Virus record (IMG/VR): IMGVR_UViG_3300046462_000211
Coordinates: 1 to 30,442 of that record
Strand: one strand, 5' to 3'
Length of the DNA stretch: 30,442 nt
Source of the DNA: a virus
Shown here: one piece after another, positions 1,428 to 29,220 of the stretch
How positions within the stretch are numbered: position 1 is the first letter of the stretch
Layout of the letters: every line of letters begins with the position of its first letter
The notes under the pieces: generated by a model
Database searches by the model: none
Seen by the model: only the letters and a program-made list of their open reading frames with translations
Told to the model about the DNA's origin: nothing
Translations under genes and position numbers: made by a program

Positions 1428-1677
1428 TGGACATTGCGGTCACGTCATCGGCGGACAGCACCCCCTTGTCCACCAGTGCTTGTATCAGCCCGGCTAGGTC
1501 GGGGACAGCCACTGGATCAGGATCGACATAGGCCGCCGCAGCCGTCGTGGCGGCCGCCTTCTGTTCGTAGGTTGCGGAGTCTTGGAAGAAGATGAACCCG
1601 TCCGCCGCCACCCCGTCGATGTCGGGGCAGACTGCGCGGATGGCGGCGTCGAAGGCGGAGAGGTTGGTGATTGTCAT
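1381..1677 (-). CDS. small protein at the distal end of the tail operon, unknown function
   Basis: This is the last gene of the long minus-strand operon and encodes 98 residues. I prefer the ATG at 1677 because it forms an ATGA overlap with the stop of the upstream fibre gene and sits about 9 bases from a GGTGGGAG ribosome-binding site; an ATG at 1683 is also open. The N-terminal half, with PDIDGVAADG followed by DSATYEQKAAA, resembles a short domain often found at the end of phage tail genes (a P-(x)-IDGV segment followed by an AT-x-x-Q-x-x-AA helix). The C-terminus is Pro-rich. It could be a fibre accessory or assembly protein. Its end overlaps the annealing-protein gene on the other strand. 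Confidence 0.6.
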   Translation of the reverse strand: MTITNLSAFDAAIRAVCPDIDGVAADGFIFFQDSATYEQKAAATTAAAAYVDPDPVAVPDLAGLIQALVDKGVLSADDVTAMSTMPPVLNPPVKLPPS

Positions 1678-3002
1678 AGCCATATACTCCCACCCAATAT
1701 ATTTCCGCTCGATCCGTCGAATGTGTTGGCGTGAGTTCCGTCCCCCTGCTCAACGGCAAAAATTGTTGTTAGACCTGCGCTCGAAACTTGGTACACCGAT
1801 GAATAAGCGCCAGGTATCGATGTCGATGACGGATTTGTAAAAAAAACATTAGTGGCAAATGCGGTCGATATAGTGCTCAACCCATTAATAATAAACGACC
1901 CAACATTGGCAGTTAGAGAGCTGTCGGCATCGTAATAGAATGAGGCCGCCCTCTCACTATCTGATTGAATATATGAAATCTGATTTCCTGCGCTTGCTCT
2001 GGCTTGCCTAGCAGTGGCGGTAGAGTAAGTGTAAGGACTTCCGTTATCTATTACAATGGTATTGTGTAATACCTTGTTGTAATAGTTGCAGATGCCAAAC
2101 GATGCTGCTCCTCCGCCGGAGGCGGCGGTGCCGTACACAAAGCTCATCAGTCCGTTGCCGCCACCGTTCATTATGACGGTGCCGACAAAAGTTCCTTGGT
2201 TTGACGTTACGGAAATCACGGTGGACGGTCCCGTCCTCATTGAAACAGTTGTTCCATTTGTTAACATACCGCCAAAAATCGCAATCGGAGAGGCGCGCAG
2301 AACAGGGTTCGTCCAGGCTACAAAAGCCATAACAGGAACCCCTCCTACCAACGTAATGAATACGTCGAATGCGACCCCGGCCGGGAAATTGCCGCTGCTG
2401 GTCGTATCAACACCCAACCCTACCTGATCCGCGAGCGAAGAGCAGAAGCTATATTGTTGAAGCGTGGAGCCGTTCCATATGGGAATGAATTGGTTGACGT
2501 AAGGAGCATAGTATACAATGGATGTCCCGTTTACGGACGCTGGCATTACGGGGCTTGAGTTTGTTAGTGTCAGGCGACCGCCGGGCGTGCCGCCGAGGCC
2601 AGTAGACCCACCGCCCACCGCAGGCTGCTCCAGGAAGAAGCCTGGAAACCCACCGGCCAAGGTGGTGCTGTAGATCAGGACGTACTCCTGGCCGCTCACC
2701 AGATCGCCAACGTTGGCCTGGGTGGCACCATCGGCGTGGTACACCGGCAGGAAGCCGAGGCCGTTGAACTGTGCCGTGACCGCCGCGCTGGAGTTCCCGT
2801 TGGCCCTGAAGCGGTAGCCGCCCAGTTCGTTGTAGGAAGTCAGGACTGGGCAGTTAATCAGCGGCGTCAGCGACACAGCGTTGTTGCCCGAGGCCGAGCA
2901 CGGTATTTGGATCATGGCGGCAGTCTGGTTGAACATGCCGTCGAATAGGGAAAGCGGCTGATCGCCGCCGAGCAACGTGCCGAAAATTACCGGCCATGTC
3001 AT
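1674..3002 (-). CDS. fibre-like distal tail protein
   Basis: A 442-residue Gly/Ser/Thr/Asn-rich beta-type protein with no signal peptide. Its N-terminus, MTWPVIFGTLLGGDQPLSLFD, resembles the short conserved start common in tail-fibre proteins of phages of Rhizobiales and relatives, where it probably attaches the protein to the virion. The remainder has alternating hydrophobic and polar residues and Gly-rich turns, as expected for a receptor-binding or fibre shaft protein. It follows the HNH endonuclease gene with an ATGA overlap (2999-3002) and overlaps the next gene by ATGA. Base composition in this gene is visibly more AT-rich than in the capsid genes, as is common for exchangeable fibre genes. 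Function is inferred from position and composition only. Confidence 0.6.
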   Translation of the reverse strand: MTWPVIFGTLLGGDQPLSLFDGMFNQTAAMIQIPCSASGNNAVSLTPLINCPVLTSYNELGGYRFRANGNSSAAVTAQFNGLGFLPVYHADGATQANVGDLVSGQEYVLIYSTTLAGGFPGFFLEQPAVGGGSTGLGGTPGGRLTLTNSSPVMPASVNGTSIVYYAPYVNQFIPIWNGSTLQQYSFCSSLADQVGLGVDTTSSGNFPAGVAFDVFITLVGGVPVMAFVAWTNPVLRASPIAIFGGMLTNGTTVSMRTGPSTVISVTSNQGTFVGTVIMNGGGNGLMSFVYGTAASGGGAASFGICNYYNKVLHNTIVIDNGSPYTYSTATARQARASAGNQISYIQSDSERAASFYYDADSSLTANVGSFIINGLSTISTAFATNVFFTNPSSTSIPGAYSSVYQVSSAGLTTIFAVEQGDGTHANTFDGSSGNILGGSIWL

Positions 3003-3499
3003 GGGGCTGACCTCGCAAATTCACCAAATACCTTCAATGCCTCCAATTTGTAAGCCAGCACAGCATCATCTTTGCTGTTGAACCGCCCTATTGTTTTTTT
3101 TGCTACTCTCACCCTCCACCTCTTGGTCCACGGGTCGAACGATACGCCCTTATACCCAGAAGTGTTTCTTTTACCAATATTCGTGTTTGCAACATTTTGG
3201 GAGCGAGTAGAGAGCCGCAAGTTCGACCACTTGTCGTTTTTAGGGTCTGTATCTTTGTGGTCTATTTCCACAGTTGGCCACTCTCCCATCATTAATGCCC
3301 AGGCGATTCTGCTCCTCAAAAAGTCTATGCCATCAATACAAATACAGACACGTCCGTCACTCTTTCGAGCGTGCCCAGCCAAGTCTCCAGACTTAAGCAT
3401 CCCCCTGTCAGTGCGGCAAACAACAACCCCGGTAGTCGGATCGTAGCTGACCACCTCCCTTAACCGTTCTATTGAAATGCTATTGGTGGGCCAAGTCAT
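2999..3499 (-). CDS. HNH homing endonuclease with AP2 DNA-binding domain
   Basis: This 166-residue protein has the two-domain layout of free-standing phage homing endonucleases. Residues about 75-110 form an HNH core (PTVEIDHKDTDPKNDKWSNL, with the IDHKD, N and WSNLR positions of the HNH_3 type, followed by SQNVANTN). Residues about 113-162 form an AP2-type DNA-binding domain (SGYKGVSFDPWTKRWRVRV, then IGRF and a DAVLAYK helix). Such enzymes cut a specific site and spread their own gene. It sits between two fibre-like genes with ATGA overlaps on both sides and is AT-rich relative to the capsid genes. Its first codons (MTWP) nearly duplicate the first codons of the next gene, a possible trace of insertion. 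Confidence 0.9.
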   Translation of the reverse strand: MTWPTNSISIERLREVVSYDPTTGVVVCRTDRGMLKSGDLAGHARKSDGRVCICIDGIDFLRSRIAWALMMGEWPTVEIDHKDTDPKNDKWSNLRLSTRSQNVANTNIGKRNTSGYKGVSFDPWTKRWRVRVAKKTIGRFNSKDDAVLAYKLEALKVFGEFARSAP

Positions 3500-5736
3500 G
3501 TGAAGTGTCCGTTCGCCGGGTCGATCCAGGTCGGAAATGCCGCAGTGGTGGCTGTGCTATTGGGATCGAAACCTAGCGCCTGCCAAGAGGTAAAGGTTAG
3601 ATTGGACCCGGAAATCCTGTTGAATTGAGAAGAGTTGGTGCCGCCCGAAGTGGCGTTAGGGCACAGGTAGTTGTTGCGATCCACTATGGCCGTTGTGAAC
3701 TGCGCAGATGGTCCCATATCCATAATATTGCAGGACGCTCCGGTGCGCGTGTCCTCGATCTGGTTGTCGGTGGACACGAGAGGCTTGGTTGCGGTTATCG
3801 TGTTGGTGGTCGGCAACATAACTATCGCGGAAGCTGTTGCTGATGACTGATAAATCTTGTTCCTGTAAACCTGGTATCTCATGCTACCAGTACATAAAGC
3901 GGCACCGCCGGTCCCCGACAGGGATGGGAGAAACCAGCCTGCGTCACTTCCCCAGACAAAGTGATCGCGGAAGGTGCCTCTAAGCAAACAATTCGGCGGG
4001 TATCCTCCTTGACCAAGGTTGGAGTGAGCACACTTTTGCGAGACAACATCCACCCACTGAACCGCCGTTGCGTTGTTGAATCCGTCGCTGAAATCAGACG
4101 CGACCTCACACCCGCTGAAATAACAGGAGTCAATGCAAAAGTAGTGTACGAAGTGAACCGATACGCTACCTACATATATGGCAGTCCCTGTGGTAAGGGT
4201 TAGAGCACTAAGCTGGTAGGTTCCTATGCCTCCTGGAGTTCCCGTTAGCTGCATTGTTATGGTGACACCAGGAGGAACCGCTGTGTTGAAGTTAACACAA
4301 TACAAAGTCATCCCCACTTGGATTGGCGGGGTCCCTCCAAACAAAGTGTTTACAGTAAAAACTCCTGTCGTTATGCTACCATCTAGTATGATAGCACTAG
4401 TGTAGTTAGTGTAGTCTCCGTTTATGCAAGATTGTTTGGTTGGACCGCTTCCTGTGTTCGTGGTGGCGCCGAAGTTGATCCACCGGCATAGGAAGTTGTC
4501 TCCGATGCCAGGGTAAATATGGTGGTCCCTGCTGTTGTCGCTGCCCGCTCCGACTATTGTACCACCCATGATGAAGAACCACTGGCTCCAGCCGAGGAAA
4601 GACATGCTCATGCGATTTCCGGCAAACGGGGCAAGAGGGCTGGTAACCGACATATTCCATGTGCCGGCCCGAACACAATTTGCTACCGCTGGATCATTTT
4701 GGGGGGACAGTGCGAATACGTCCTGCCCAGCTATGTTGAGCGTCGTGCTGACTGTGCAGTTGTCCCAGTAAAAATCATGGTACACGGCAGCAGGGTCAAA
4801 GTTGGCACCAATAAACCCGGCAGCATTGCCAAATGTGTTGGTACCACTGGTAACACATTGGATGTTTGAAACCACAATATCCGTCAGACTGTACCCACCT
4901 GACCCAGAACCTGGTCCTGTATTAAATCCAACCGCCGCGTTGTTGGCGGTACCGTCTTGATTTATAATAGGGTCAGCGCCGGTGCTGTAAGCGTCGAATC
5001 GAACTTGATCCAAGGAAGATGCGCCCGAAAACCCGAGCGTTTGACCGACGAAGTTTGAACCACGCTTGAGATGAATAGCAATATTGCTGGGGGAAACTCC
5101 AGCAGGAGAAACCGCCGACCACGCAGTCTTTGCCGCATTGATGGTTTGGAATGGAGTCCCTGATGAAGTCCCGTTGTTAGAGTCGCTACCTCCGACTGAA
5201 TCGCACCACCACTCGTGCGCAGCCGTGAAGGCGGTGGCAGTGAAGGTTGCCGTAGACGTAGCGGTAGTGAACCCAGCTCCGTTGGCACCGCGGATTGTCA
5301 GGGTAACGGTATAGGTGTCGGCTACACGGCAGACGAAGGCGGCGTCAGGGCCGGTCTGGTCAGTGTTCGCATTTACGCTCGGGCCGCCGGTCGTATAGGG
5401 ATACACTGCCGGGTTGGTGAAATTCTCTGCGGCAACAGTGCCCCCGGCGCGACTGATGCTCCAGGAATATTCCAAGTCCTCATATGGCTGGGTCGTGCCG
5501 GTTGCCGTTATGGCAGACGCCGAGGCTTGGAAGAAAGCTGGCAGTTGGCCGCTCGTGCGCGACATGCTGATGCCGCCGGCAGTGTTTATGGCTGTGATCG
5601 TCACATTGGGGTTGCCACCAAACCCGGGGGGCGGCGGGACAAAGGCAGACCCGTGTGTCCACGCTAACGCTGGCGCCATCCTGTAAACGACAGCCAATGC
5701 TGTGGCAGCTAGAAGTTCTCGTCTGCTAATAAGCAT
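3496..5736 (-). CDS. exported PKD-like plus right-handed beta-helix protein with Tat-like signal
   Basis: A 746-residue protein. Residues 1-25 look like a twin-arginine export signal: SRRELL at 4-9, a hydrophobic stretch to about 18, and an APALA cleavage site before W26. Residues about 43-170 have PKD/Ig-like features (LEYSWSI, then TYTVTLTI). From about 176 a parallel beta-helix begins with WWCDSVGGSDSNNGTSSGTP, the usual entry sequence of pectate-lyase-like phage and bacterial surface proteins (D-x-x-x-G-x-D-x-N-x-G). Such proteins are often polysaccharide-binding or depolymerising tail spikes; no catalytic residues can be assigned here. The mature part has 16 cysteines, high for a phage tail protein and consistent with an oxidising compartment. 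It overlaps the upstream gene by 11 bases and the HNH gene by ATGA. Confidence 0.68.
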   Translation of the reverse strand: MLISRRELLAATALAVVYRMAPALAWTHGSAFVPPPPGFGGNPNVTITAINTAGGISMSRTSGQLPAFFQASASAITATGTTQPYEDLEYSWSISRAGGTVAAENFTNPAVYPYTTGGPSVNANTDQTGPDAAFVCRVADTYTVTLTIRGANGAGFTTATSTATFTATAFTAAHEWWCDSVGGSDSNNGTSSGTPFQTINAAKTAWSAVSPAGVSPSNIAIHLKRGSNFVGQTLGFSGASSLDQVRFDAYSTGADPIINQDGTANNAAVGFNTGPGSGSGGYSLTDIVVSNIQCVTSGTNTFGNAAGFIGANFDPAAVYHDFYWDNCTVSTTLNIAGQDVFALSPQNDPAVANCVRAGTWNMSVTSPLAPFAGNRMSMSFLGWSQWFFIMGGTIVGAGSDNSRDHHIYPGIGDNFLCRWINFGATTNTGSGPTKQSCINGDYTNYTSAIILDGSITTGVFTVNTLFGGTPPIQVGMTLYCVNFNTAVPPGVTITMQLTGTPGGIGTYQLSALTLTTGTAIYVGSVSVHFVHYFCIDSCYFSGCEVASDFSDGFNNATAVQWVDVVSQKCAHSNLGQGGYPPNCLLRGTFRDHFVWGSDAGWFLPSLSGTGGAALCTGSMRYQVYRNKIYQSSATASAIVMLPTTNTITATKPLVSTDNQIEDTRTGASCNIMDMGPSAQFTTAIVDRNNYLCPNATSGGTNSSQFNRISGSNLTFTSWQALGFDPNSTATTAAFPTWIDPANGHFT

Positions 5737-6658
5737 TGATGCCCAGAGCGGTAGCGAAGGTGTTTATTCGGTCGGCCACCTTCTTGGCATTTGCTGCCGA
5801 CAGGCCGGTGCTCAGGAAAACAAAAGAAATCTGGTCTGTGGAAAAGCTTGATGCAACACTGCCGTTCCACAGAGCCGATATGGCAATATTGGTTGTCGGG
5901 GGCCCAGCATCAGCCGATGCTGCGTTCGTTGCAAACGGAGTCAGGCTGCTGTTGAGATAGAGGTCTACTTGCGTAGCAGTCGTTCTGGAGCCAATCCATT
6001 GACCTTTGGCTTGAGTGTTGGCCGCGCTGGTGAACGATCCGTCATTAACGCCGAAGTCAGCCGCCGAGGAATTTAGAGGCCGGATATAGTCGAAGACGCC
6101 CGAATCTGTGGTGCCCAGGAGAAACATGCTGGCACTCATTGTTCTTGCAGACGTTATGTATCCGCCGATCGCAAAACTCGATACCGTAACGCCCGCACTA
6201 TTGGGGTTGAATTGGGTATCCAAATATCCGTCCGATCCATTTCCGACATATCCAACATTGGCGGTAAAGGTAATTGTGCCGTGGGATACGAGCGAGAAGC
6301 TGGTGCCGCAAAGGTTGAGCAAGGAGGTGGCTGAGTCGGGAGCGGCCAGGACGTAGACAGCATACATGGCCCCGCCTGTGACACACCCGACGCTATCGGT
6401 TTCCAAGCCGCAAATCAGGTTGTCGTAGTTTGTCTTCTGCGGGTCAGTCAGACCAGAGGTGCGAGCTAGAAAGTCGGTCGAGGGAGTGCAGGAAGGGGTG
6501 AATGGCGAGGACCCGGAAACGCCGCACGGCTGGAAGACCAAGGAGTGCTGATTGACGGCACCACAGCCAAGCTGCCCGATCTGGGCGCGTGCTCCAGGCT
6601 GTTGGGCAAGCCACACTATCCCCAGCAGAAGAACCAGGGCTGAGAGAATACGATACAT
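5726..6658 (-). CDS. exported LamG-like beta-sandwich protein
   Basis: A 310-residue protein with a Sec signal peptide: a short basic start (MYR), hydrophobic LSALVLLLGIVWLA and an ARA/Q cleavage site near residue 25. The mature N-terminal 100 residues contain all six cysteines, which could form three disulfides. The middle and end (about 130-300) resemble a concanavalin/LamG-like sandwich: GNGSDGYLDTQFNP, a GGYI strand, a WIGSRT strand, DLYLNSS, and a closing helix with SAANAKKVADRINTFATALG. Domains of this kind usually bind sugars and are common in phage fibres. It is separated from the upstream stop by one base and overlaps the next gene. It could be a virion adhesin or a host-envelope protein. 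Confidence 0.62.
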   Translation of the reverse strand: MYRILSALVLLLGIVWLAQQPGARAQIGQLGCGAVNQHSLVFQPCGVSGSSPFTPSCTPSTDFLARTSGLTDPQKTNYDNLICGLETDSVGCVTGGAMYAVYVLAAPDSATSLLNLCGTSFSLVSHGTITFTANVGYVGNGSDGYLDTQFNPNSAGVTVSSFAIGGYITSARTMSASMFLLGTTDSGVFDYIRPLNSSAADFGVNDGSFTSAANTQAKGQWIGSRTTATQVDLYLNSSLTPFATNAASADAGPPTTNIAISALWNGSVASSFSTDQISFVFLSTGLSAANAKKVADRINTFATALGINAY

Positions 6659-6659
6659 A

Positions 6660-7469
6660 TCAGTTCGCCTGTGAGTGGATGAACTTGCCGGTTCCAGCCG
6701 CAGTAAGAACCGGGCAGTCTGTCGAGGAGATGGCTACCACTATTCCGGCCGAGAAGTGCTCCCAAGGCCCTGGATTGTAATTGATGCTGGCACCCCAGTC
6801 CGTCACACCCTTCTGAAGTTCAAAACATCCCTGTAGATTGCCGGAGGCCGTCCCGACAGTCAGGGTGGCATTGCTGGGGAGGGATGTGGCATTTATGATA
6901 AACACCCAACCTGCCGCCGAACTGGTCACATAGGCATTCTGGAGATTTCCGGCCGAAGCCTTGGCCACTACATTGGTTGCCGTTGTGCCGGCCACTACCG
7001 TTGTTCCGGCACTGGTCGAGGTTGAATCCTGGATAATGCCAACACCGCCAATAGAGACAGTAGAGGCTTGAGTAGGAATTGCCGCCCCTGTATTTGTAGC
7101 AATGGAGGCCAGGGATGTGTTTGCTGTGGTTTGATTGGCCGCCGTAGCCGCCCCAGTGGGGAGGGTTATAGTTCCAGCAATATTGTTGATGTTGTTAGTG
7201 GCCCCCGTGAGTTGGGTGGCAAAAGTTCCCGCGTTGGTGACAGCCCCAGCAACAGAAACGGCGCCACCGGCACTAACCGCTGCGCATTGGGTTGGGGTAG
7301 CTGGGTCGCACAAAAGTTGTTGCGCGTAGTTAACAGCACTCACAACGAGTGAGCCGAAGGTCGTTCCACTTCCCTGTGTTACGGTGTAATTGGTGGCAAG
7401 GGCCGCCACGGGCAGAGCCGCAATGAGGCAGACATAGGCTACCCTGAGAAGCCTGATAGGCCATTTCAT
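6660..7469 (-). CDS. exported phage structural-type protein of unknown role
   Basis: I place the start at 7469 (MKWPIRLLR), not at the upstream in-frame ATG at 7499. It forms a TGATG overlap with the preceding stop and lies 7 bases from an AGGAG site, and it gives a clean Sec signal: basic start, hydrophobic VAYVCLIAALPVAALA, cleavage before TNY. The product is 269 residues. The middle is Ala/Thr-rich with an AATAANQTTANTSLASI segment like the linkers of many phage fibre-associated proteins. The C-terminal 90 residues have the pattern of a small beta domain common in phage particles, including PWEHFSAGIVVAISSTDCP. The mature part has four cysteines. Its presence with a signal peptide is unusual for that domain type. 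Confidence 0.6.
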   Translation of the reverse strand: MKWPIRLLRVAYVCLIAALPVAALATNYTVTQGSGTTFGSLVVSAVNYAQQLLCDPATPTQCAAVSAGGAVSVAGAVTNAGTFATQLTGATNNINNIAGTITLPTGAATAANQTTANTSLASIATNTGAAIPTQASTVSIGGVGIIQDSTSTSAGTTVVAGTTATNVVAKASAGNLQNAYVTSSAAGWVFIINATSLPSNATLTVGTASGNLQGCFELQKGVTDWGASINYNPGPWEHFSAGIVVAISSTDCPVLTAAGTGKFIHSQAN

Positions 7470-7666
7470 CAGAAAACTCCTAGCATAGGTAGAGCACATC
7501 CGGCCGATAGATCGAGAGGCCCACTACATCCCGGGGGAGGTGGCGGTGGGGCCAAGGTGTTGTTGGTATTGGGCCCGATCTGGATAAGCGAACCAGGACC
7601 TATGGGCGCCTGTGCCATGGCCTGGGCCACCAGGAAAGCCATCAGGATGAGGATGAACCACCTCAC
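7469..7666 (-). CDS. small exported Pro-rich protein
   Basis: A 65-residue protein that is almost half signal peptide: MRWFILILMAFLVAQAMA followed by QAPIG. The mature peptide of about 45 residues is Pro/Gly-rich with a six-proline run at about 40-45 and two cysteines (PPGCSG and GCALP). It is coupled to both neighbours: ATGA overlap with the upstream gene (7663-7666) and TGATG with the downstream gene. No domain is recognised. It could be a periplasmic peptide or a linker protein of an exported complex. Confidence 0.55.
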   Translation of the reverse strand: MRWFILILMAFLVAQAMAQAPIGPGSLIQIGPNTNNTLAPPPPPPGCSGPLDLSAGCALPMLGVF

Positions 7667-7992
7667 TGGAAGTACTCCACGTCCACGGTGGCACCGCTAC
7701 CGATGACTTGGAGGGCAATAAGGGCGTCCCGGCCAGCGATCTGAAAACAGGCCCCCGAGGCTACCGCCATACCGACTGTGGAGCTTGGAGTTGTGCCCGA
7801 TGTCGTGTAGCGGATGGCCGCAGTGTCTACGCAGATTTCAGCGATCCTGGCCTGGGTGGGGACGGTCAGGGTCTGGACAGAGGTTACGGCCAATCCATAC
7901 TGGGGCGTCCCGGTCGGCTTGTACTGATAGACGGCCTGTGCCCACGCTGGCAATGACACGCAAACCACCGCTGCCGCCAGGATCGCTCTCAT
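7663..7992 (-). CDS. small exported beta protein
   Basis: A 109-residue protein with a Sec signal peptide (MRAILAAAVVCVSLPAWA, cleaved before QAVYQ). The cysteine inside the hydrophobic stretch lacks a lipobox, so it is not called a lipoprotein. The mature part has two cysteines (EICVDTA and GACFQIAG) and a pattern of short beta strands ending in VDVEYFQ. The layout, a strand with Cys, an xIRYTTSG turn, a G-A-C-F strand and a closing strand, resembles small decoration-like beta-sandwich proteins of phages. A good ribosome-binding site (AGGAGA, 6 bases away) supports the start. The next gene upstream (8031-8456) has a similar layout. Confidence 0.58.
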   Translation of the reverse strand: MRAILAAAVVCVSLPAWAQAVYQYKPTGTPQYGLAVTSVQTLTVPTQARIAEICVDTAAIRYTTSGTTPSSTVGMAVASGACFQIAGRDALIALQVIGSGATVDVEYFQ

Positions 7993-8030
7993 TTAATATC
8001 TCCTGCCTCGCCAGCCTCGCCTCCTAGCTA

Positions 8031-8456
8031 TTAGTAGTATTCCAACACTGTGATGTTGGGAGTGGCCGAGGCCGAGGACCCGTTCCAGGCGGAACCGAGA
8101 TTGCCAATGACGTTGCCGAGGCCCGAGCCGGGGACGGTGAAGCAGGAGGTGACGCCCGAGGCGATGGCGGGGAGGCCGATACCCACCGCAGAGGTGGAGA
8201 GAACGATGGTGCCGGCGGGGGCCACAAACTCGACCACCGCAGTCGGGTTGCAGAACACGAGGCCCTTGCGGGTGGGGTTCTGGCCAACGATCTGCACTGG
8301 GGTGCCGCCGTTCAGAGCAACGGTGGTGCCTGCGGGGCCAAGCTGAGTACCCTGAGCCTTCACCATGGTTGGTCCTTGGTTAACAGCAAGGATAATCAAG
8401 CCTGCAACGACCCCGAAGGCAGTCGCAGCTATTACGTTCTCAAGAGCACGATGCAT
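8031..8456 (-). CDS. membrane-anchored or exported small beta protein
   Basis: A 141-residue protein starting with a charged segment and one hydrophobic helix (about residues 8-25, VIAATAFGVVAGLIILAV), then either a cleavage site near VKA/QG or an uncleaved anchor. The rest is a small beta domain with two cysteines (GLVFCNPTAVVEF and VTSCFTVPG) and a C-terminal strand ITVLEYY. The order of elements resembles the protein encoded at 7663-7992, suggesting the same fold, though identity is low. The start has an ideal GGAGG site 5 bases upstream. Function is unknown; exposure on the outer side of the inner membrane is inferred from the signal. Confidence 0.55.
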   Translation of the reverse strand: MHRALENVIAATAFGVVAGLIILAVNQGPTMVKAQGTQLGPAGTTVALNGGTPVQIVGQNPTRKGLVFCNPTAVVEFVAPAGTIVLSTSAVGIGLPAIASGVTSCFTVPGSGLGNVIGNLGSAWNGSSASATPNITVLEYY

Positions 8457-8457
8457 T

Positions 8458-8844
8458 TCAGCCTCCGTTGCCGGTTATACCGGCTCGCCAGTATAGGGCA
8501 ACGATTGGACCTAGAACCGTCACCGAGAATAGGGCCGCCGCGATGGTCCGCACCTGAGTTGGGTCCCACACCGCAAAACTCCATATGCCGCAGGCGGCCA
8601 CAACGGCTATCAGACCCAGCAGCCGAGCCGATAGCACATCGAGGGCCGCAATTAGGACGGCAGGATACTCTTTTTTGATTTGGGCGATAGGCGACGAACG
8701 AACTTGGGGCTCCGGGACAGGAATTGGCTCTGGCCTGGGAGGCGGAGGCGGCATGGCCACCACGTTCTCGACAGGCTTGGGACCATCATACAAATCCGCC
8801 TGCTCCACGCCCTCGGGTAGTTCATTTGGCAAAGAAAGCGCCAC
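8458..8844 (-). CDS. two-helix membrane protein with Pro-rich N-terminal segment
   Basis: A 128-residue protein beginning with GTG at 8844, chosen because AGGAGG lies exactly 5 bases upstream and no better start is visible. Residues 31-46 are almost entirely proline alternating with acidic, basic or small residues (MPPPPPRPEPIPVPEP), similar in style to TonB-type periplasm-spanning spacers. Residues about 63-91 and 99-118 are two transmembrane helices. It overlaps the preceding small gene by 23 bases. It lies directly upstream of the run of exported proteins and may work with them in the membrane, or it could be a holin-like or anchor protein. No family was recognised. Confidence 0.55.
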   Translation of the reverse strand: MALSLPNELPEGVEQADLYDGPKPVENVVAMPPPPPRPEPIPVPEPQVRSSPIAQIKKEYPAVLIAALDVLSARLLGLIAVVAACGIWSFAVWDPTQVRTIAAALFSVTVLGPIVALYWRAGITGNGG

Positions 8845-9007
8845 TAGCTCCTCCTATTCCTTCGTCTATCTTGTGGCGGATCGCCAGTATCTTGGCCCCC
8901 ACCTCGATTGCTTTCAGTCGCTCCGAGTTGGACAACTCCTTGCCACGGAGCGCCCTTCTCACTTCAATCTCCAACACGTCGATCAGACTCTTCTGCCTTG
9001 CCGTCAT
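8822..9007 (-). CDS. small helical protein, unknown
   Basis: A 61-residue, charged, mostly helical protein. The segment SERLKAIEVGAKILAIRHKID (about 28-48) looks like an amphipathic helix pair, followed by a flexible Gly-rich end with FF near the C-terminus. Similar short proteins with an RLKA-IE-G-K-L helix followed by FF occur in other phages, but no role is known to me. It is ATGA-coupled to the large virion protein gene upstream, and its 3' end contains the ribosome-binding site of the next gene. Confidence 0.5.
   Translation of the reverse strand: MTARQKSLIDVLEIEVRRALRGKELSNSERLKAIEVGAKILAIRHKIDEGIGGASGAFFAK
8850..8855 (-). promoter_or_regulatory. strong ribosome-binding site fixing a GTG start
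   Basis: AGGAGG on the minus strand, five bases before the GTG at 8844. It lies inside the 3' end of the preceding 61-residue gene and determines the start of the Pro-rich membrane protein. Confidence 0.6.
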
Positions 9008-10461
9008 GGCTGGGCCGCGTTGAGGGTGTCGTAGCCTTCCCCCTGATGATCGAGGGCCTGCTGACCACCAACTGCCCCACTTCGCAGGGTCTGGTCCCGC
9101 AGCGACTTCTTGGCGTCCACCCTCATCGCCGCGTTTTTGACGGCCTGCTGCTGGTTTATTGTGGCCCTCTCCTGAACTTTCGATATGAGATTTTCGATCT
9201 GCTGGTCAGTAAGATATTCTCCCAATTTTCGGAAGGCGAGTTTTGCTGTCCCCAATCCCACTGCGGCTGGGAAGCTAGCTAGTCCTATCAAAGGCAGTAG
9301 ACCATGGGGAACCGATTTATCTATTGAACGAGCGCCTCGGGACATAACCGTGCCTCTCACAGTGTCCTCAAGGGCCTGCTGCTCTTCTGGATTAAGCCTG
9401 CTCAGTCTTTTGTCATTTTTGAGTATACTGTTTAGCTTCTGCAATTCGGCGTTTTGGGTGTTGCCCTTCCACCCCGTCGAGGAAGCTTGGTTTATGCCTT
9501 GCTCTCTTGCCTTTTGTAGTTCTTCTACCTGTGACTTTACGTTCCAATCGTTGATGGCGTCCTTTAGGGTATTATTTATTTGTGGGTCGCGTTGTTTCAT
9601 AAAATCCACGACTTCAGAGCGAGCTAGTTGACCGGCTATCCGCTCGTCGGCCGGGACGGTTCCCAACTTAGCATGAAGATTCATCAAATCCTTGTACCGG
9701 GCCGGTTGATTTCTATCCTTCAAATATCTCTCCATGTACTTATACGTCATGGGAGAATTTATGTCGTCACGAGAATTGGTGTCCAACCATGTGTCTAATG
9801 TAGAATGGAGTGCGTCTGTTTCATGAGTAGGGATAAGGGTTGGGTCGTTCTCGATGACCTTATAGCCTTGTTTAGCACTGGCCTCGATGTCGGGAGCTTT
9901 GGCAAGAGCCTTTCGCCCTGCCGCCTCTCTCATGGCCTTGGAACCCGCTCCAGTTCCAGCCCCGCCGGCAACGCCGCCCGCCACGGACGCCAAAGTTTGC
10001 CCCCATTCCGGGGCGCCCAATTCCTCGGCAATCTTGCGGCCGTAATGTGAACCGGCACCGCCCATAGCCGCGCCGCCGATCTTGAGCGCAGCACTACCAG
10101 CGCCGAGAAGGTTCAATGGATTAGCCACTGCTTCACCCACGTCACCGGCCAATGTGTCCCCCTGCGGCTCAAGACCCAGCGCCTTGTTCATCCTATCGGC
10201 GTAGTGCGGGGTGAATTTTGGGTTCTCTGGTATTTGGAGTCCTTCGCGGAGGCCCTTGCCGGTGACGGCCTCGCCCAGAGAGCCGAGTGTTCCAGTCACG
10301 CCCCTGGCCAATCCCTTGCCCAGTTCCTTGATGCCACTGGGGCCTTCGTCAGGCTGGTACTGCTGCTGGGCAAAGGCAATAGCCTGCTCCTGGGTGGCGC
10401 CTTCCGGCCCTTCCACCGTGATAACTTTGCCATCGGGCGCCTGTACCTTAAATTGGGGCAT
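9004..10461 (-). CDS. probable internal virion (ejection-type) protein
   Basis: A 485-residue cysteine-free protein. The N-terminus, FKVQAPDGKVITVEGPEGAT followed by QEQAIAFAQQQY, is the short beta-hairpin plus helix found at the start of many internal or ejected virion proteins of short-tailed phages. Two Gly/Ala-rich hydrophobic stretches follow (about 118-190 and 400-420), which could insert in membranes during DNA entry, with charged helices between them and at the end. In short-tailed phages such proteins leave the capsid with the DNA and form a channel through the envelope. Position after the tail hub and the other large low-complexity proteins fits. No lytic transglycosylase motif was seen. 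Confidence 0.58.
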   Translation of the reverse strand: MPQFKVQAPDGKVITVEGPEGATQEQAIAFAQQQYQPDEGPSGIKELGKGLARGVTGTLGSLGEAVTGKGLREGLQIPENPKFTPHYADRMNKALGLEPQGDTLAGDVGEAVANPLNLLGAGSAALKIGGAAMGGAGSHYGRKIAEELGAPEWGQTLASVAGGVAGGAGTGAGSKAMREAAGRKALAKAPDIEASAKQGYKVIENDPTLIPTHETDALHSTLDTWLDTNSRDDINSPMTYKYMERYLKDRNQPARYKDLMNLHAKLGTVPADERIAGQLARSEVVDFMKQRDPQINNTLKDAINDWNVKSQVEELQKAREQGINQASSTGWKGNTQNAELQKLNSILKNDKRLSRLNPEEQQALEDTVRGTVMSRGARSIDKSVPHGLLPLIGLASFPAAVGLGTAKLAFRKLGEYLTDQQIENLISKVQERATINQQQAVKNAAMRVDAKKSLRDQTLRSGAVGGQQALDHQGEGYDTLNAAQP

Positions 10462-12021
10462 CTACTGGATTACCTTCCATCCCCCACCTCCCCCGCCTTG
10501 CTTTGCGGGTACATCGGGGAAGGCACCAACGGGCGCATTGGTTGGGGTTCGCGTCTCTCTCACCGCCTCCATCGAGTTTTGCACTTCGCGCCACAGCATC
10601 TGAAGTTGCGTCTTGTATGCCTCCGGGCTTTGCGCCATATCGAGAAAGCCGCGCTTCTCCGACTCCATTGCCTCGCTTACGCGAGGTATCCCCTGCGGGT
10701 TCATGGCGCGTCCATACGCCTTTGCCAGAGTTTGGTTGGCCACCAAAAAAGCGTTCCACTTTGGATCGCTCATATACTGCTGTTCTTTTTGTCGAAGAAC
10801 ATTCAAGGGAACTGCTTTTCCTCGTGGCATATTGTTTGATGCTTCAAGAGCAATTGGTATGGCTCGCTGTACCTCCCCAGTTGCGGCCAAAACCCTCTGC
10901 TCCATAGAGCCAGCCAATTTGCTCTGGGATACGTCTCCACCCCACCTCTTCTTATTGGCCTCCAAATCTTGCACGGTAAGGCCGCGCTCATTCAGCCGCT
11001 TTGCAATCATGTTTTGGGCATTTGTCATTGACCCTGTGCTTCTCCCCATCTGAGCAAGAGCAGATGGATCGCCATCAATAACCCGGTCGGCAAGTTTTAT
11101 GAGTGCGTCCTCGTTTACCCCATTCATCTGTTCAATTTGTTTTTTTAACTTTTCCGTCTGAAGTTCTACCACTTTTGACTTCTCAACTCTGTCTTCGTGG
11201 TGTTCACGCTCCGTCTGCTGAAACTCGGCCAGTTTGGTGAAGTCGTGCATCTTTGCGGTGTTGTACGTGATCTGGTCGTCGTACTTGGTGGCAACCAGCT
11301 TCATCATCTCCATCTTCTGGGCGATGTTGGTCTGCTGGTCCTTCCAGACGGCATTGTACTCGTCCAGCTTCGCCTGATTTACATCGTTGACGTTCTGCTC
11401 TGCTTCCTTCCATTCTTGGTGCATCTGGCTGAAGGACTCTACGTTGCCCTCATGGAGTCCCTTCATCATGCCCGAGAATGCCGTCAGCGCAGTGGTGGTG
11501 CCTTTGCGTGAAAAGCCGCCGGCCAACGCCCCCATCAGGGCGGCCACCTGCATATAGGCCATGCTGCTTGCCGAGAAGTCGGCCTTGGGAGGAGGCTTGT
11601 TTCGCTCCAAGACTGGAGGCTTGTTCTTCCGCATGTCCTCCATGGTGGACTGGAGGTCCTTGATGCGCCCCCCCATGTCCGCCTGTTTCTGCTTTTGCAG
11701 AACATCGTTGGCGGCGGTCGCCCCTTCAACGGCCTTGCGAACATCGTCAGAGGTGTAGTCGCCGCCGCCAGGTATGGCACCAGCCCCCATATCCTTGGGC
11801 GCTTCTTTGCCGGTTGCAAGTCTGTGGAGGGGCTGGAACCCTTGCGCGGGAGGCGCCTGTTGGGGGTTAAAGGAGGTAGGAGCTAAGCGGTCGTCATCCT
11901 TCAACTCCATTGCCGTCGATTGGAATGACGCTGGAGCAAAGTGTGCATCATCCTTCAACGCTGTAGCAAAGTATGCATCATCCTTGAGTTCGTCGGCAAA
12001 GGGCTGGCGATCATCGGTCAT
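10462..12021 (-). CDS. helical virion protein with N-terminal ELKDDA repeats, probable internal protein
   Basis: A 519-residue cysteine-free protein. The first 50 residues contain three degenerate copies of a short acidic repeat: ELKDDAYFA (about 11-19), ALKDDAHFA (21-29) and ELKDDDRLAP (39-48). Residues about 165-190 are hydrophobic (AYMQVAALMGALAGGFS), followed by a long charged coiled-coil region (about 195-310), then a helical C-terminal half with a Gly-rich end. Long helical, Cys-free proteins at this place in short-tailed phage genomes are usually packed in the head and ejected with DNA. The stop TAG directly abuts the start of the next gene. No enzymatic motif is visible. Confidence 0.55.
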   Translation of the reverse strand: MTDDRQPFADELKDDAYFATALKDDAHFAPASFQSTAMELKDDDRLAPTSFNPQQAPPAQGFQPLHRLATGKEAPKDMGAGAIPGGGDYTSDDVRKAVEGATAANDVLQKQKQADMGGRIKDLQSTMEDMRKNKPPVLERNKPPPKADFSASSMAYMQVAALMGALAGGFSRKGTTTALTAFSGMMKGLHEGNVESFSQMHQEWKEAEQNVNDVNQAKLDEYNAVWKDQQTNIAQKMEMMKLVATKYDDQITYNTAKMHDFTKLAEFQQTEREHHEDRVEKSKVVELQTEKLKKQIEQMNGVNEDALIKLADRVIDGDPSALAQMGRSTGSMTNAQNMIAKRLNERGLTVQDLEANKKRWGGDVSQSKLAGSMEQRVLAATGEVQRAIPIALEASNNMPRGKAVPLNVLRQKEQQYMSDPKWNAFLVANQTLAKAYGRAMNPQGIPRVSEAMESEKRGFLDMAQSPEAYKTQLQMLWREVQNSMEAVRETRTPTNAPVGAFPDVPAKQGGGGGGWKVIQ

Positions 12022-12022
12022 G

Positions 12023-13459
12023 TTACGTTACCGCATTTTGAACGGCAGAAGGCTTGGCGGCGCTGTTGGTGCTGACCGCCGCCAATAGGCCAAAGGACTT
12101 CAATGCATCGCCAACGGCCTGGTTATATTGCTGATCGCCCTGAGCCTGTAGTTGGGCGGCCTGCAAGAGGGCGTTATTGGCGCCCGAGTTGATGTTGGCG
12201 GCTGTCCCGAGGCCGGCGTTTGCTGCCGTAGCGGATTGGAAGGCCGTATTGATAAGCTGGGTGATCATAGCCGTCTGTTGAGCTAGGGCATCCTGCTTGA
12301 TCTGGGCAACGTCGCCCAGGAACCGGCTGTCGCTGTTGGGATCGGTAACGCCGTGGCTGGCGTAGAACTGGTATCGCTGGTTGGTCTGGTCTTGAACGTA
12401 CTTAGCCAACGTGGCCGCCTGGGCTGGACTGATCTGGTTATTGGTGGCGTTGGTCAAGTCGGTGGCCGCCGTTTGGTTGAATAGCGGGACGTTCTGAGTG
12501 GCCTGCGGGGACAACTGAGCGGCTTGGGCCTGGGCGTTGTTGACGGCTTGCTGAGCCTGCGGCGGAATGCCCGGAGCCCCCTTGTACAAAGTAGAACCAA
12601 GGAAGCCCAATGGGAGCGCCAGTTCCGCCGCCTTGGTCCACGGGGAGTTCAGGACCCCCCCCAATTGTGAGGTCAGGCTAGAAGAGGCGGCTGGTGCCGC
12701 CCCACCACCTCCGAAGCTTTCTCCCGCACCTCCCGTCAACCCAGTGTTTGCCCCGGGTAATGGATTGTTGGCCGCAATCCCCTCCTTTAGGGTTGCGGGG
12801 GCGGCATCCGCGCTGGCGCTCCCAAGAGACCCTGGGTCGGCGCCAAGAGCCGCGTCGATGTTGGCATTTGTGCCAGCTAGTTCAGTGGCCGGGTCCGTGA
12901 AAGCCGCCGCTGCCGATGGCACAGATGGTGTAGTTCCCGCCGCCAAGGATGTGGCTGCGCTGGTGGCGGGCGTGGCCCCAGTTGAGATGTCAGGAGCTAA
13001 AGCCAGAGCATTGGCGGCATCGCCACCCACCGAGGTACCCAGGCTCCCGCCGAGGCCAGACAGATCAGCCCCTGCACCGGCAAGTCCGGCGGTATCTAAG
13101 GCATCGGCCACACCAAGGCCCCCTACTACCCCTGCGTCTACCGCTCCGGCCCCTAGGTCTGCCGCCAGCCCAGCGTCTACTGCCCCCGCCCCAAGATCGG
13201 CGGCTCCCAAACCGGCATCGGCCGCGCCGACAGCGCCCGCAGCATCGGCCGCGCCAAGTCCGACATCGGCCGCGCCAAGTCCGACATCAGCCGCGCCGGC
13301 ACCCAGATCGGCCAGCCCCAATCCCGCCCCAATCTCTGGGGCCAGGAAGGGCAGGGCCACGGCAGCACCAATGCCGGCCGCTTCAAGGCCGGACCGCAAC
13401 GGATGGGCCTCGATCCCGCTGATCTGACGGTTGATCCAATCCTCTAGAGAAAAGCCCAT
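12023..13459 (-). CDS. Ala/Gly-rich repeat virion protein
   Basis: A 478-residue cysteine-free protein. After a short amphipathic start (MGFSLEDWINRQISG) and a hydrophobic stretch, residues about 45-125 are a run of GLGAAD-type repeats (GLGAADV, GLGAADA, DLGAGAVDAG), with 7-residue periodicity and matching 21-base DNA repeats. The middle is Ala/Ser/Thr-rich and disordered-looking. The C-terminal 150 residues are helical and Gln/Asn/Ala-rich. The hydrophobic Gly/Ala repeat could pack as helices in a membrane, as proposed for ejected proteins. Together with the two neighbours downstream it probably forms the internal protein set; this is inferred from order and composition. Confidence 0.52.
   Translation of the reverse strand: MGFSLEDWINRQISGIEAHPLRSGLEAAGIGAAVALPFLAPEIGAGLGLADLGAGAADVGLGAADVGLGAADAAGAVGAADAGLGAADLGAGAVDAGLAADLGAGAVDAGVVGGLGVADALDTAGLAGAGADLSGLGGSLGTSVGGDAANALALAPDISTGATPATSAATSLAAGTTPSVPSAAAAFTDPATELAGTNANIDAALGADPGSLGSASADAAPATLKEGIAANNPLPGANTGLTGGAGESFGGGGAAPAASSSLTSQLGGVLNSPWTKAAELALPLGFLGSTLYKGAPGIPPQAQQAVNNAQAQAAQLSPQATQNVPLFNQTAATDLTNATNNQISPAQAATLAKYVQDQTNQRYQFYASHGVTDPNSDSRFLGDVAQIKQDALAQQTAMITQLINTAFQSATAANAGLGTAANINSGANNALLQAAQLQAQGDQQYNQAVGDALKSFGLLAAVSTNSAAKPSAVQNAVT
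13245..13286. repeat. 21-base tandem repeat in the Ala/Gly-rich gene
   Basis: Two exact copies of a 21-base unit (13245-13265 and 13266-13286), followed by a diverged third, encode the GLGAADV heptad of the 478-residue virion protein. The repeat is in frame, so copy-number change would leave the protein readable. Confidence 0.85.
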
Positions 13460-13468
13460 GGCGGCACC

Positions 13469-15727
13469 TTATGCGTTGTTCAAAGCGTCAAACGCTGCGG
13501 TATTGTCTATAGGAGCCGCCCCTCCTGGTCTAGCGCGAGGGGCAAAGAGGCCAAGTTCCGGGTTGAAGTTGCCCAGTGGCAATCCTTCGTCCCCGAGAGT
13601 GATGGTGGGAAAGAACGGGTTATGCACGGGGGATGACCCATCGGCAGGAGATGTCCCGTCCGCCGGGCTTGTTCCGTCCGCCGGGGTATTTCCTGGTATC
13701 GGCTCGATAAGCTGGGACGCCAGCAGGTTGCCGCCTCCACCATTACCGCCACCCGGTCCCCCGCCATCTCCCGTATTTCCTGCTCCATCGCCTGCTGGAT
13801 TGCCAATTCCTGGATCATTCAGCGCCGACAAAACATCCGGGTTGGTGCTAGGGGCAATGTCGGGTCCAACTGGAGTTGTAATGTCTGGCGGTGTACCAGG
13901 ACTAGGACCTGGAGCCGGTGCTGGCGCGGGTGGGGCCGCCGCATCAATCGAGTTGAAACCTCCGCTGGCTATCTTGACGTTTGGGGCGGGAGCGGGAGCT
14001 GCGGTTGGATCTGGAGTTCCGGCAACGACCGATGTGGCAACCTGGTTCTGCTGACTTTCAGGCGTGAGGTTGCCGCCCTGCAATCCCCCAAGCGGCTCGT
14101 TAAGGCCGGGAAGATTCTCTAAGCCGGGAAGAGTGCTGGTGGCATCAGCCAATCTGGGCGCTGGACCACTATCAGGAAAAGCATTCTGAACAGGAGTGCC
14201 CCAAGTCGTTTGATTGTTGGTGGCCCATGAAGGCAATCCGCTGGCGTCTTGAATAGTTGCCGGTTGATCCCCAACACCAGGTTGGCCGTAAGTATTAAAG
14301 GCAGTTGGGCTACTGTCTGGGAACATTCCCGGCTGAAGTAGTTCATTGAACGATGATGTCGCCGTAGGCGGGATTGTTACATCGTTGAAGCCCTCGGTTG
14401 TCATAAAACTAGGTTCTTGAGCGCCTACGGGAGCTGGAGGACTGGTTGGCTGTCCATCTACTTCAATCCCAAGGATGTCTGTCCCAGGGCCAAAAGCATT
14501 CCCCGCAAACTGCGGCCCCATGTTGGACGGAATCCCTCCCAAACCCAGCCCTTGCTGCGCCGCCTGAGCCTCGGCAATGGTTGGACCGGCTGTTCCCATG
14601 GCGTTTGCCATATTGGGCGGGGGACCTTGATCGATTCCGCCGGGAGCTGGAGCGGGCTGATCCGGGGTCGGCGCATCGCTGGGCAGCGGGCTGGTGTCTT
14701 GGGCGGCCTGCGCCCTCGCCATACCCTGCTGGGCTGCAAGAATTGCCTGATCCCCGGTCTGGGCCGGGACCGGGTTCTGGTCGCCGGCCACATTCTGCTG
14801 TTCAGGACTGGAGGGGGCGGCGTTGGCCGTTCCAAGGGCCTGAGCAATAGGGCTGTCACCCTGGCCGGAAAGAAGACCTGATAGAGACGAAAACCCGCCG
14901 CCGAGTCCTAGAGCCGAAGCGGCGGCAGCGGGGCTGGCGGACGCCACCTGGCCCAAGCCAGAAGGTTGGCTTCCAAGACCAGCCAAGCCTCCCATGGGAG
15001 ATGCTGCCGCTGCTGCTGTTGGCGCTGGGGCTGAGTCCAGCGCCGCCCCCATATCTCCAGTAATGCTGGAGCTTTGAGTGCCTCCGGTAGGACCGGAAGC
15101 GGCAGGAGCCGAGACTTGATTGTCGGCCGCGCCGGGGGATTGATTGTCGGCCGCGCTGGGAGATTGGTTGCCGCCGGTTGGGTCCGACGAGGCAGCGAGG
15201 CCGCCACCATCAGATGTACCAATATTCCCATCGGCACTAGGACCTTGATTCCCGCCAGTTGCGTCAGCCCCAGGCCCGGGGCCGCTATCGGCGACAGATG
15301 TGCCATCGGCCGGACCACCACCGCCCTCGGCAGTTGTTCCTTGCGTCCCGCCAGTCGCATCGGACGCTGGCCCTCCGGCCCCGGCATCAGCCGAAGCTGC
15401 GGCCCCCTGACCGTCCGAACGGTCATTGCCGGGGGATTGGTCGCCGCCGGTTGGGTCTGAGTTGCTGTCATCGTCACCCGGGGATTGGTCGCCGCCGGTT
15501 GGGTCTGAGTTGCTGTCGTCGGCATTGCTGTCACCGTCTGCACTGCTGTCACCGTCTGCACTGCTGTCACCATCGTCTGCATTGCTGTCGCCATCATCTC
15601 CCCCGCCGTCATCACCGCCGCCGTCACCGTCGTCTCCCCCGCCGTCATCATCGCCGCTCGCAAACAGCCAAGACGGTTGCCAGCCCCACTCGAACTCGTC
15701 AAAATAGTCTTTGGTCAGTCTGCGCAT
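13469..15727 (-). CDS. large Asp/Gly/Pro-rich low-complexity virion protein with PTGG-x-Q repeats
   Basis: A 752-residue cysteine-free protein. Only the first 23 residues (MRRLTKDYFDEFEWGWQPSW onward) look ordered. Residues 25-75 are a polyacidic Asp/Gly/Ser tract with GDSSAD units. Then six copies of (P/A)TGG-(D/N/T)-Q occur near residues 76, 92, 124, 156, 183 and 213, roughly every 16 or 32 residues. The remainder is Pro/Ala/Gly/Gln-rich, with a second short repeat near residues 690-708 (SPADGT). The DNA has direct repeats to match. Such a protein may be a flexible, negatively charged filler or linker in the particle. No known family was recognised, and the start is supported by GAGGA 7-8 bases upstream. 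Confidence 0.55.
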   Translation of the reverse strand: MRRLTKDYFDEFEWGWQPSWLFASGDDDGGGDDGDGGGDDGGGDDGDSNADDGDSSADGDSSADGDSNADDSNSDPTGGDQSPGDDDSNSDPTGGDQSPGNDRSDGQGAAASADAGAGGPASDATGGTQGTTAEGGGGPADGTSVADSGPGPGADATGGNQGPSADGNIGTSDGGGLAASSDPTGGNQSPSAADNQSPGAADNQVSAPAASGPTGGTQSSSITGDMGAALDSAPAPTAAAAASPMGGLAGLGSQPSGLGQVASASPAAAASALGLGGGFSSLSGLLSGQGDSPIAQALGTANAAPSSPEQQNVAGDQNPVPAQTGDQAILAAQQGMARAQAAQDTSPLPSDAPTPDQPAPAPGGIDQGPPPNMANAMGTAGPTIAEAQAAQQGLGLGGIPSNMGPQFAGNAFGPGTDILGIEVDGQPTSPPAPVGAQEPSFMTTEGFNDVTIPPTATSSFNELLQPGMFPDSSPTAFNTYGQPGVGDQPATIQDASGLPSWATNNQTTWGTPVQNAFPDSGPAPRLADATSTLPGLENLPGLNEPLGGLQGGNLTPESQQNQVATSVVAGTPDPTAAPAPAPNVKIASGGFNSIDAAAPPAPAPAPGPSPGTPPDITTPVGPDIAPSTNPDVLSALNDPGIGNPAGDGAGNTGDGGGPGGGNGGGGNLLASQLIEPIPGNTPADGTSPADGTSPADGSSPVHNPFFPTITLGDEGLPLGNFNPELGLFAPRARPGGAAPIDNTAAFDALNNA
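15432..15517. repeat. 38-base direct repeat, period 48, in the Asp-rich gene
   Basis: Positions 15432-15469 and 15480-15517 are identical over 38 bases with a period of 48, in frame, and encode DSNSDPTGGDQSP in two copies. A diverged related segment occurs near 15155-15182. Confidence 0.85.
15526..15561. repeat. 18-base tandem repeat encoding GDSSAD
   Basis: Two exact 18-base copies (15526-15543 and 15544-15561) with a partial third encode the acidic GDSSAD units. All units keep the reading frame. Confidence 0.8.
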
Positions 15728-26052: not shown

Positions 26053-26432
26053 ATGCTCCCTAGTTTCTTGCATGTCGGGCAGTAGGACCGCCGCTTCTGA
26101 AACTTCCAACCAATCCTCTCAAACGCCGTGATGACATCGTTGGTTATGTCGGTGTCTCCCCGGCGGATTTGCTTGGTGTCCCCCCAGGCAAGGGTTCCTA
26201 CGCGGTTGTGGACGATGGGGGAGTCCACACCGCACCGGAAGCAGTTGGTGCGGAACGGAGCCAGTTGCTGGAACCACTTGGCAAAGTATGCGGCATATTC
26301 CTCTTCCGGTGATTTAACCGGGGCCGGTGCCGGCTCCTGGGGCTTCCCATCCATCGCCTCTTGGTATTGCTTCTTGCGCTCGTGCAGCGCCTTAACGGCC
26401 TTGTCGAGAAAGGCCAGCTTGTCCTCAGGCAT
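26049..26432 (-). CDS. Cys4 protein downstream of terminase, unknown
   Basis: A 127-residue protein. The first 50 residues are helical and charged, followed by an acidic segment. Two CxxC pairs, C64/C67 (NCFRCG) and C118/C121 (YCPTC), could bind one zinc, bringing together a middle region with LAWGDTKQIRRGDTD. The start shares one base with the terminase stop and has GAGGAG six bases upstream. It may be a terminase-associated or DNA-binding factor. No family was recognised. Confidence 0.55.
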   Translation of the reverse strand: MPEDKLAFLDKAVKALHERKKQYQEAMDGKPQEPAPAPVKSPEEEYAAYFAKWFQQLAPFRTNCFRCGVDSPIVHNRVGTLAWGDTKQIRRGDTDITNDVITAFERIGWKFQKRRSYCPTCKKLGSI

Positions 26433-28759: not shown

Positions 28760-29179
28760 CTATTTGGCCGGGTGTGACTCATGCCTTTCCTCGTTCTCGA
28801 TGGCATTGATGCGCGCGATCAACTGATCGATCAGCTTGTTGCGCTCGGTTTCCCATGCTTTGAACGCATCGTCCCGTAGGAATGGCGTCGCCATGTACTG
28901 ATCGACTCGCTTTACAAACTCATCGTGCGCGGCCTTGGTCAGCCGAGTCTCCTTGATGTAGTCGATTTCCTTGCGAAGGAGTTGGTCGTTTTTGTTTGTG
29001 TCCGCTCTCAACTGATTTATTACATTCTCCGTAAGAGTAAATCTGGTGTCGGCATTTCTGGACAACGACGCTATATCCGAAACCAGGATAAAATACTCCC
29101 CGGCCATGATTGTGCCGATAAGCCCAAGCGTGGCCACGACATTCCCCCATGATAGGAGTGATATGAGTGGTGCCGGCAT
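28760..29179 (-). CDS. single-pass membrane protein with long coiled coil, spanin-like candidate
   Basis: A 139-residue protein with one N-terminal transmembrane helix (about 11-34) and a long charged helical region (about 45-130) with heptad-like spacing. This layout, inner-membrane anchor plus periplasmic coiled coil, resembles i-spanins such as Rz, but no partner outer-membrane lipoprotein gene was seen. It also resembles generic phage coiled-coil membrane proteins. It is preceded by a 41-base gap with nothing recognisable. Confidence 0.5.
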   Translation of the reverse strand: MPAPLISLLSWGNVVATLGLIGTIMAGEYFILVSDIASLSRNADTRFTLTENVINQLRADTNKNDQLLRKEIDYIKETRLTKAAHDEFVKRVDQYMATPFLRDDAFKAWETERNKLIDQLIARINAIENEERHESHPAK

Positions 29180-29220
29180 ACCCCCATCATAGGGCTAAGA
29201 CTCGGGTATGTCATCGCCTA

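Follow-up and report, generated by a model that had tools for sequence, protein, structure and literature searches.

Related systems

Virions of tailed phages are held to be completed in the cytoplasm, and their tail fibres normally carry no signal peptide. Phages do export proteins, such as Lom, Cor, Llp, the spanins and g3p of filamentous phages. Here we describe a cassette of six consecutive genes (positions 3496-8456, minus strand) in the IMG/VR virus record IMGVR_UViG_3300046462_000211, the whole of which (30,442 bases) was analysed and is called the window below. The window has a podophage layout on the minus strand. From their sequences, the cassette proteins are very probably exported from the cytoplasm and disulfide-bonded. 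They differ from the exported proteins named above, which are not tail-fibre cassettes, and by eye they lack a lipobox: no cysteine (Cys) was found at position +1 after the hydrophobic region, the first mature residues from g8031 to g3496 being Q, Q, Q, T, Q and W at cleavage sites set by eye. We call the proteins fibre-type rather than ordinary fibres because tail fibres lack signals and these proteins do not.

Three described systems come closest. The tip of the spike Pam5_18 of Pseudanabaena phage Pam5 (ON014757) is similar to the product of window gene g1674 (29%, E 6e-18). Pam5_16 to Pam5_18 (tail fibre, receptor-binding protein and spike) have no signal and contain 2, 0 and 0 Cys, and the spike is one chain. 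The freshwater phages MW202753 and MW202825 have terminases 42.0% and 41.4% identical to that of the window and a similar gene order. Unlike the cassette, their fibre- and sandwich-type genes were signal-less by a loose rule, which in MW202825 flagged the annotated holin, one more hydrophobic start and nothing else. WceF, from Pantoea stewartii, resembles a tailspike and carries a Tat signal (PMC7949094). It is however encoded in a bacterial exopolysaccharide cluster and not part of a phage cassette, and the paper's text does not mention cysteine or disulfide. The cassette protein g3496 had a Tat-like start and no match to a beta-helix or other domain.

The six cassette genes

All six open reading frames (ORFs) were present, with short gaps or overlaps between them. 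The cassette follows the large virion-type genes and precedes the spike gene g1674, a position that fits tail fibre or spike genes. Its genes are as follows (lengths in amino acids, aa; a slash marks the predicted cleavage site):

8031-8456, minus strand: g8031, 141 aa; long N-terminal signal with an A34/Q35 site, small beta sandwich, C69 and C105
7663-7992, minus strand: g7663, 109 aa; Sec signal (AWA/QAV), 2 mature Cys
7469-7666, minus strand: g7469, 65 aa; Sec signal, Pro-rich linker, C-terminal loop CSGPLDLSAGC
6660-7469, minus strand: g6660, 269 aa (revised start); Sec signal (ALA/TNY), CDPATPTQC loop, 4 mature Cys
5726-6658, minus strand: g5726, 310 aa; Sec signal (ARA/QIG), LamG-like stretch, 6 mature Cys
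3496-5736, minus strand: g3496, 746 aa; Tat-like signal (SRRELL...ALA/WTHG), 16 mature Cys, no recognised domain

The start of g6660 is most likely at 7469 and not at 7499, because it then overlaps the preceding gene in a TGATG.

The first-pass annotation had assigned Sec- or Tat-type signals or signal anchors to all six genes. Five passed our strict signal-peptide rule; g8031 failed it and was accepted through its conserved cleavage site. The signal rules were home-made and not those of SignalP, and the six cleavage sites were placed by eye. The start of g3496 was merely Tat-like, with a weaker hydrophobic region; we take its SRRELL to be a Tat-like motif. The annotation's mature Cys counts of 16, 6, 4, 2, 2 and 2 (g3496, g5726, g6660, g7469, g7663 and g8031) were reproduced, and the four large proteins encoded at 9004-15727 were indeed found to have no Cys at all.

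Its assignment of beta-helix, LamG-like and small sandwich domains stood only in part. A weak LamG-like stretch was present in g5726 and a sandwich was modelled for g8031, while g3496 had no match among PHROGs or PDB sequences, nor in Pfam above the cut-off. The label "LamG-like", given both by the first-pass annotation and by us, refers to weak matches of g5726 to stretches of phage proteins. As to fibre or spike domains, g5726 was the only one of the six with phage matches, and these were weak. PDB sequence searches with g5726 and the g8031 family had no matches. None of the six proteins had a Pfam match above the cut-off, and PHROG and Pfam searches were nearly empty overall. AlphaFold2 modelled g8031 as a beta sandwich with a mean predicted local distance difference test score (pLDDT) of 69.1. 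A fold search with this model gave no match at E <= 0.001, and many of the weak matches were cupin-like.

The clearest single example of the predicted pattern is the family of g8031. In all nine members, g8031 included, A34, Q35 (in a site of the form [AVT]-x-A/Q), C69 and C105 were invariant. The other eight members were 30-48% identical to g8031, and the N-terminus drifted. Homologues of g7663 in two contigs (L050 and L015; numbers with L or G are our own handles) were likewise signal-bearing.

A C-terminal Cys loop of the CSGPLDLSAGC type, lying 6-10 residues from the end, was observed in five signal-bearing proteins (window 7469-7666; L037/L057, L050 and L060), either alone or ending a LamG-like protein. 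A loose form of the pattern was additionally found in two signal-less ORFs (L117 and L156), apparently by chance.

Signals and cysteine parity in related phages

The first-pass annotation had proposed a search for the same gene run in related phages. Using the conserved gene g8822 as a marker, we located the corresponding slot in 11 related phage genomes, window included, and signals were found to cluster there. Up to 8.5 kilobases (kb) downstream of the marker (the slot) were compared with up to 14 kb upstream (the virion-gene core). Strict-rule signals were carried by 36 of 85 slot genes and by 2 of 131 core genes, one of the latter being itself a signal-bearing fibre (G005). The share of signal-bearing slot genes per genome ranged from 1/11 up to 3/3. 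Among 35 complete signal-bearing genes, six encoded no Cys and the remaining 29 all had an even mature count (29/29). The 61 signal-less core genes with Cys were divided into 24 with even and 37 with odd counts. Fisher's test gave 4e-15 for the positional and 4e-9 for the parity comparison, values that overstate independence because homologues were counted repeatedly. In the freshwater relative MW202753 the strict rule found no signal in 17 core and 12 downstream genes.

Genes were called with a simple ORF script, and some downstream "genes" are likely unreal. L041 and L068 were uncounted, as the marker motif was not found in them, and L018 (a near-duplicate) and L064 (a control) were excluded from the totals. 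Several contigs end within the 8.5-kb slot stretch; a G010 gene with 23 Cys, cut by the contig end, was omitted when parity was counted. The g8031 gene of the window was not scored as signal-bearing in the slot count, and the rule sometimes sets the site too early, by a few residues or more. Two of the counted signals were doubtful (G014:26409 and G015:14736, the latter with multiple transmembrane segments). Outside the window family parity was imperfect, with 9 mature Cys in an L075 protein and 7 in a 605-aa protein of L155.

Cysteine pairs and signals in shared fibre domains

A scan of viral contigs for DNA encoding the fibre repeat FTVNAKGL returned at least 120 stretches. When a Cys three residues ahead of the repeat was also required, a further scan returned 12 viral and 14 genome stretches, the genome ones being mostly chance or unrelated ORFs. 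The counts that follow are among the matches listed. Of 93 unique ORFs with the FTVNAKG repeat, all eight with a Cys pair had a signal, against 7 of 85 without one (Fisher 6e-8); the eight include sequences fetched for their Cys, not for a signal, and by eye represent about four sequence types. The relation persisted when open-ended ORFs were removed (7/7 against 7/85, 4e-7), among all 109 ORFs (8/8 against 7/101) and in the scan unselected for Cys (3/3 against 7/84, 0.001; with closed ends, 2/2 against 7/84, 0.01). The reduction from 109 to 93 ORFs removed 16 signal-less ORFs running off the locus start, and the open-ended L166 was retained because of its internal signal start. Signal-bearing ORFs had 1.45 Cys per 100 residues (n=15), and signal-less ones 0.15 (n=78).

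Some individual ORFs were less clear. L208 and L209, with the repeat context of L138, had no start, and L206 starts with TTG. L211, whose single Cys is unpaired, had no signal under the strict rule and was flagged by a looser one. The strict rule also marked L114, probably falsely. L096 and L109 were repeat fibres that had a signal yet only 1 and 0 Cys, unlike most signal-bearing ones; their hosts possibly lack an oxidising periplasm.

The tie between Cys and signal recurred in two further domains, in few cases. The LamG-like stretch had Cys in the signal-bearing g5726, and in its cultured-phage matches (3/10 records examined) there was no signal and no Cys in the matched stretch. The tailspike head-binding domain of a signal-bearing L155 protein had C44 and C76, and three signal-less homologues had no Cys at either position.

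Fibre ancestry of signal-bearing proteins

This L155 protein (334 aa) matched tail spikes of known structure (E 5e-8) as well as the tailspike head-binding domain (E 1e-4), and was homologous to Pam5_16 (43.6% over 220 residues). The same contig encodes a signal-less 167-aa protein that matched the N-terminus of the Pam5_18 spike (E 3e-9), and the signal-bearing 605-aa protein, which matched its C-terminus, the tip (37.7%, E 2e-43). By these matches, the one-chain Pam5 spike is split in L155 into a putative signal-less anchor and a signal-bearing tip. In L219, a Bradyrhizobium tropiciagri contig, a signal-less 176-aa anchor matched the N-terminus of Pam5_18 (E 1e-9), and its gene overlaps by 4 bases that of a signal-bearing 457-aa protein, which matched the N-terminal and middle part of the 605-aa L155 protein.

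Fibre-type domains were also found in signal-bearing proteins of the slot and of linked contigs: Gly_rich_2 (L037), Beta_helix (L060) and, in G010, an S74-like chaperone end scoring 21.2 bits against a curated cut-off of 22. A Beta_helix protein of L043 had a signal by the loose rule alone. In the window relatives L008, L011, L038 and L058, a signal-bearing fibre has a small sandwich-type gene without a signal immediately upstream of it.

Interpretation

Export is well supported because of the position of the signals, the conserved cleavage site, and the Cys pairs that track signals in shared fibre domains. The sequences themselves show a set of predicted signals, one family's conserved site, signal-linked Cys pairing and, in other contigs, the fibre ancestry of some signal-bearing proteins. 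We tentatively favour the reading that the cassette encodes exported, disulfide-stitched fibre parts that dock on virions at lysis while the anchor stays signal-less, which would be a second assembly line of tailed phages. In such a scheme the infected cell would export the tail-fibre- or spike-type proteins via Sec (g3496 perhaps via Tat), signal peptidase would trim them and the periplasm would oxidise them. Around lysis, as holin lesions mix periplasm and cytoplasm, the exported parts may join virions built in the cytoplasm, presumably by docking onto signal-less anchor proteins. That the tip reaches the virion is favoured because L155 has retained the anchor without its tip. If true, this would mean extracytoplasmic tail assembly with disulfide-stabilised fibres and a simple dependence on DsbA. 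Alternatively, if exported and disulfide-bonded proteins of the fibre type form a recurrent class, they would give phages a new route to host-surface remodelling.

The first-pass annotation had proposed that the cassette may build a structure in or on the host envelope or supply membrane-targeted virion proteins. This was borne out in part: export is well supported, and a lasting structure in or on the envelope is a possibility. The second option is the closest to docking on virions, and the split spike and head-binding domain of L155 point to virion parts.

Several observations weigh against docking on virions. The split-spike and head-binding data come from L155, and partly L219, outside the window family; among the matches listed, the 457-aa L219 protein had no match to the Pam5 tip. 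No signal-less anchor of this kind was identified in the window, where the obvious spike of the family, g1674, is itself signal-less. Homologues of g3496, g6660 and g8031 were absent from 50,697 phage records (E limits 0.01, 0.01 and 0.1). Among the matches listed from open-licence PMC literature, none described a tailed phage with a cassette of signal-bearing tail fibres, and proteomic data on the virions or envelopes of these phages were not found. Unlike a host-range determinant, the cassette was 98-100% identical between the window and G002, and of all aligned stretches g1674 diverged most (59-71% per 300-base bin, 1500 to 2700). Parts of the virion-gene core dipped too, to 76-79% near 9300, 12900 and 15300. 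Since g1674 varies most while the cassette is constant, the exported proteins of the window may serve the envelope instead.

A possible, somewhat less likely explanation is that the exported proteins stay on the envelope or surface glycan, where they would mask, cleave or modify the receptor and so block re-adsorption of progeny and superinfection, tail-fibre modules being re-used as decoys or glycan enzymes. Signals and disulfide-type Cys pairs suit this explanation as well, as does WceF, a Tat-exported glycan enzyme that resembles a tailspike (PMC7949094). Some slot proteins of relatives also point to the envelope. A signal-bearing protein of L058 ends in an esterase domain, and a protein of L037 with multiple transmembrane segments (10390-11445, after the g8031 homologue), resembled by proteins of L038 and L058, matched Pfam Wzy_C at E 1.4e-5, below the curated cut-off; it is possibly a phage O-antigen ligase or polymerase. 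However, the tip-less L155 anchor beside an exported tip, together with the head-binding domain, is hard to explain in this way, and the lack of Pfam matches above the cut-off leaves the six window proteins without an enzymatic domain.

It is improbable that the proteins act as secreted adhesins or form a matrix, aggregating cells or changing the host surface for other ends, lysogenic conversion included. Their composition is fibre- and adhesin-like, and in the Bradyrhizobium tropiciagri contig a fibre that has both a signal and the repeat with its Cys pair lies beside phage-type spike genes. However, a tyrosine integrase (PF00589) was absent from all 10 related phage records searched, some of them fragments, whereas the control was positive in 14/14 genomes; the window family therefore looks lytic.

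Still less probable is the explanation that the hydrophobic N-termini are not export signals and belong to virion proteins that use them in genome ejection, to insert into membranes or to dock. Ejection proteins of podophages do enter the envelope, and the N-terminal helix of g8031, which failed the strict rule, could be an anchor. Against this stand the positively charged n-regions, the AxA-type sites, the invariant A-Q throughout the g8031 family and the tie between signals and Cys pairs. That signals and even Cys counts arose by chance, under rules that were home-made and not SignalP, is scarcely credible because of the positional and parity controls, and the repeat-pair comparison speaks against it too.

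Surrounding genes and further observations

The features around the cassette are:

26432-28264: terminase, matching annotated terminases
9004-15727, minus strand: four large cysteine-free proteins, taken by position as virion or ejection proteins; the contrast set for the cassette
8822-9007, minus strand: g8822, 61 aa, the conserved marker gene that locates the slot in relatives
8458-8844, minus strand: g8458, 128 aa, two hydrophobic segments (by eye), 1 Cys
2999-3499, minus strand: HNH endonuclease gene (family match), between cassette and spike
1674-3002, minus strand: g1674, 442 aa, signal-less spike with matches in its tip to Pam5_18 and to the L155 fibre that bears a signal
g1381, alongside the spike gene g1674

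From position and resemblance we presume portal, capsid and tail tubular proteins (17866 and 16085) in the window. In relatives, a g8458-like gene immediately precedes the g8031 homologue. For g1674, AlphaFold2 gave no usable model (mean pLDDT 44.7). Upstream of the terminase, at 28760-30187, the window has small genes with hydrophobic segments, possibly lysis genes; Pfam gave nothing above the cut-off for three of the small genes there.

Slot proteins with multiple transmembrane segments that resemble the one in L037 were seen at L038:10259-11410 and L058:11302-12333. Genes with a signal-type start and no Pfam match follow the fibre genes at L038:17662-18468 and L196:3940-4749, and we presume a likeness to an alphaproteobacterial outer-membrane protein. 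L155 also encodes a membrane protein (2885-3769), close to its signal-bearing fibre and on the other strand, which we take to resemble an acyltransferase and which possibly modifies surface glycan. By look only, HNH-type genes were also seen in or near fibre slots at L015:11816-12211 and L058:10843-11277; these and the one at 2999-3499 of the window may be homing elements.

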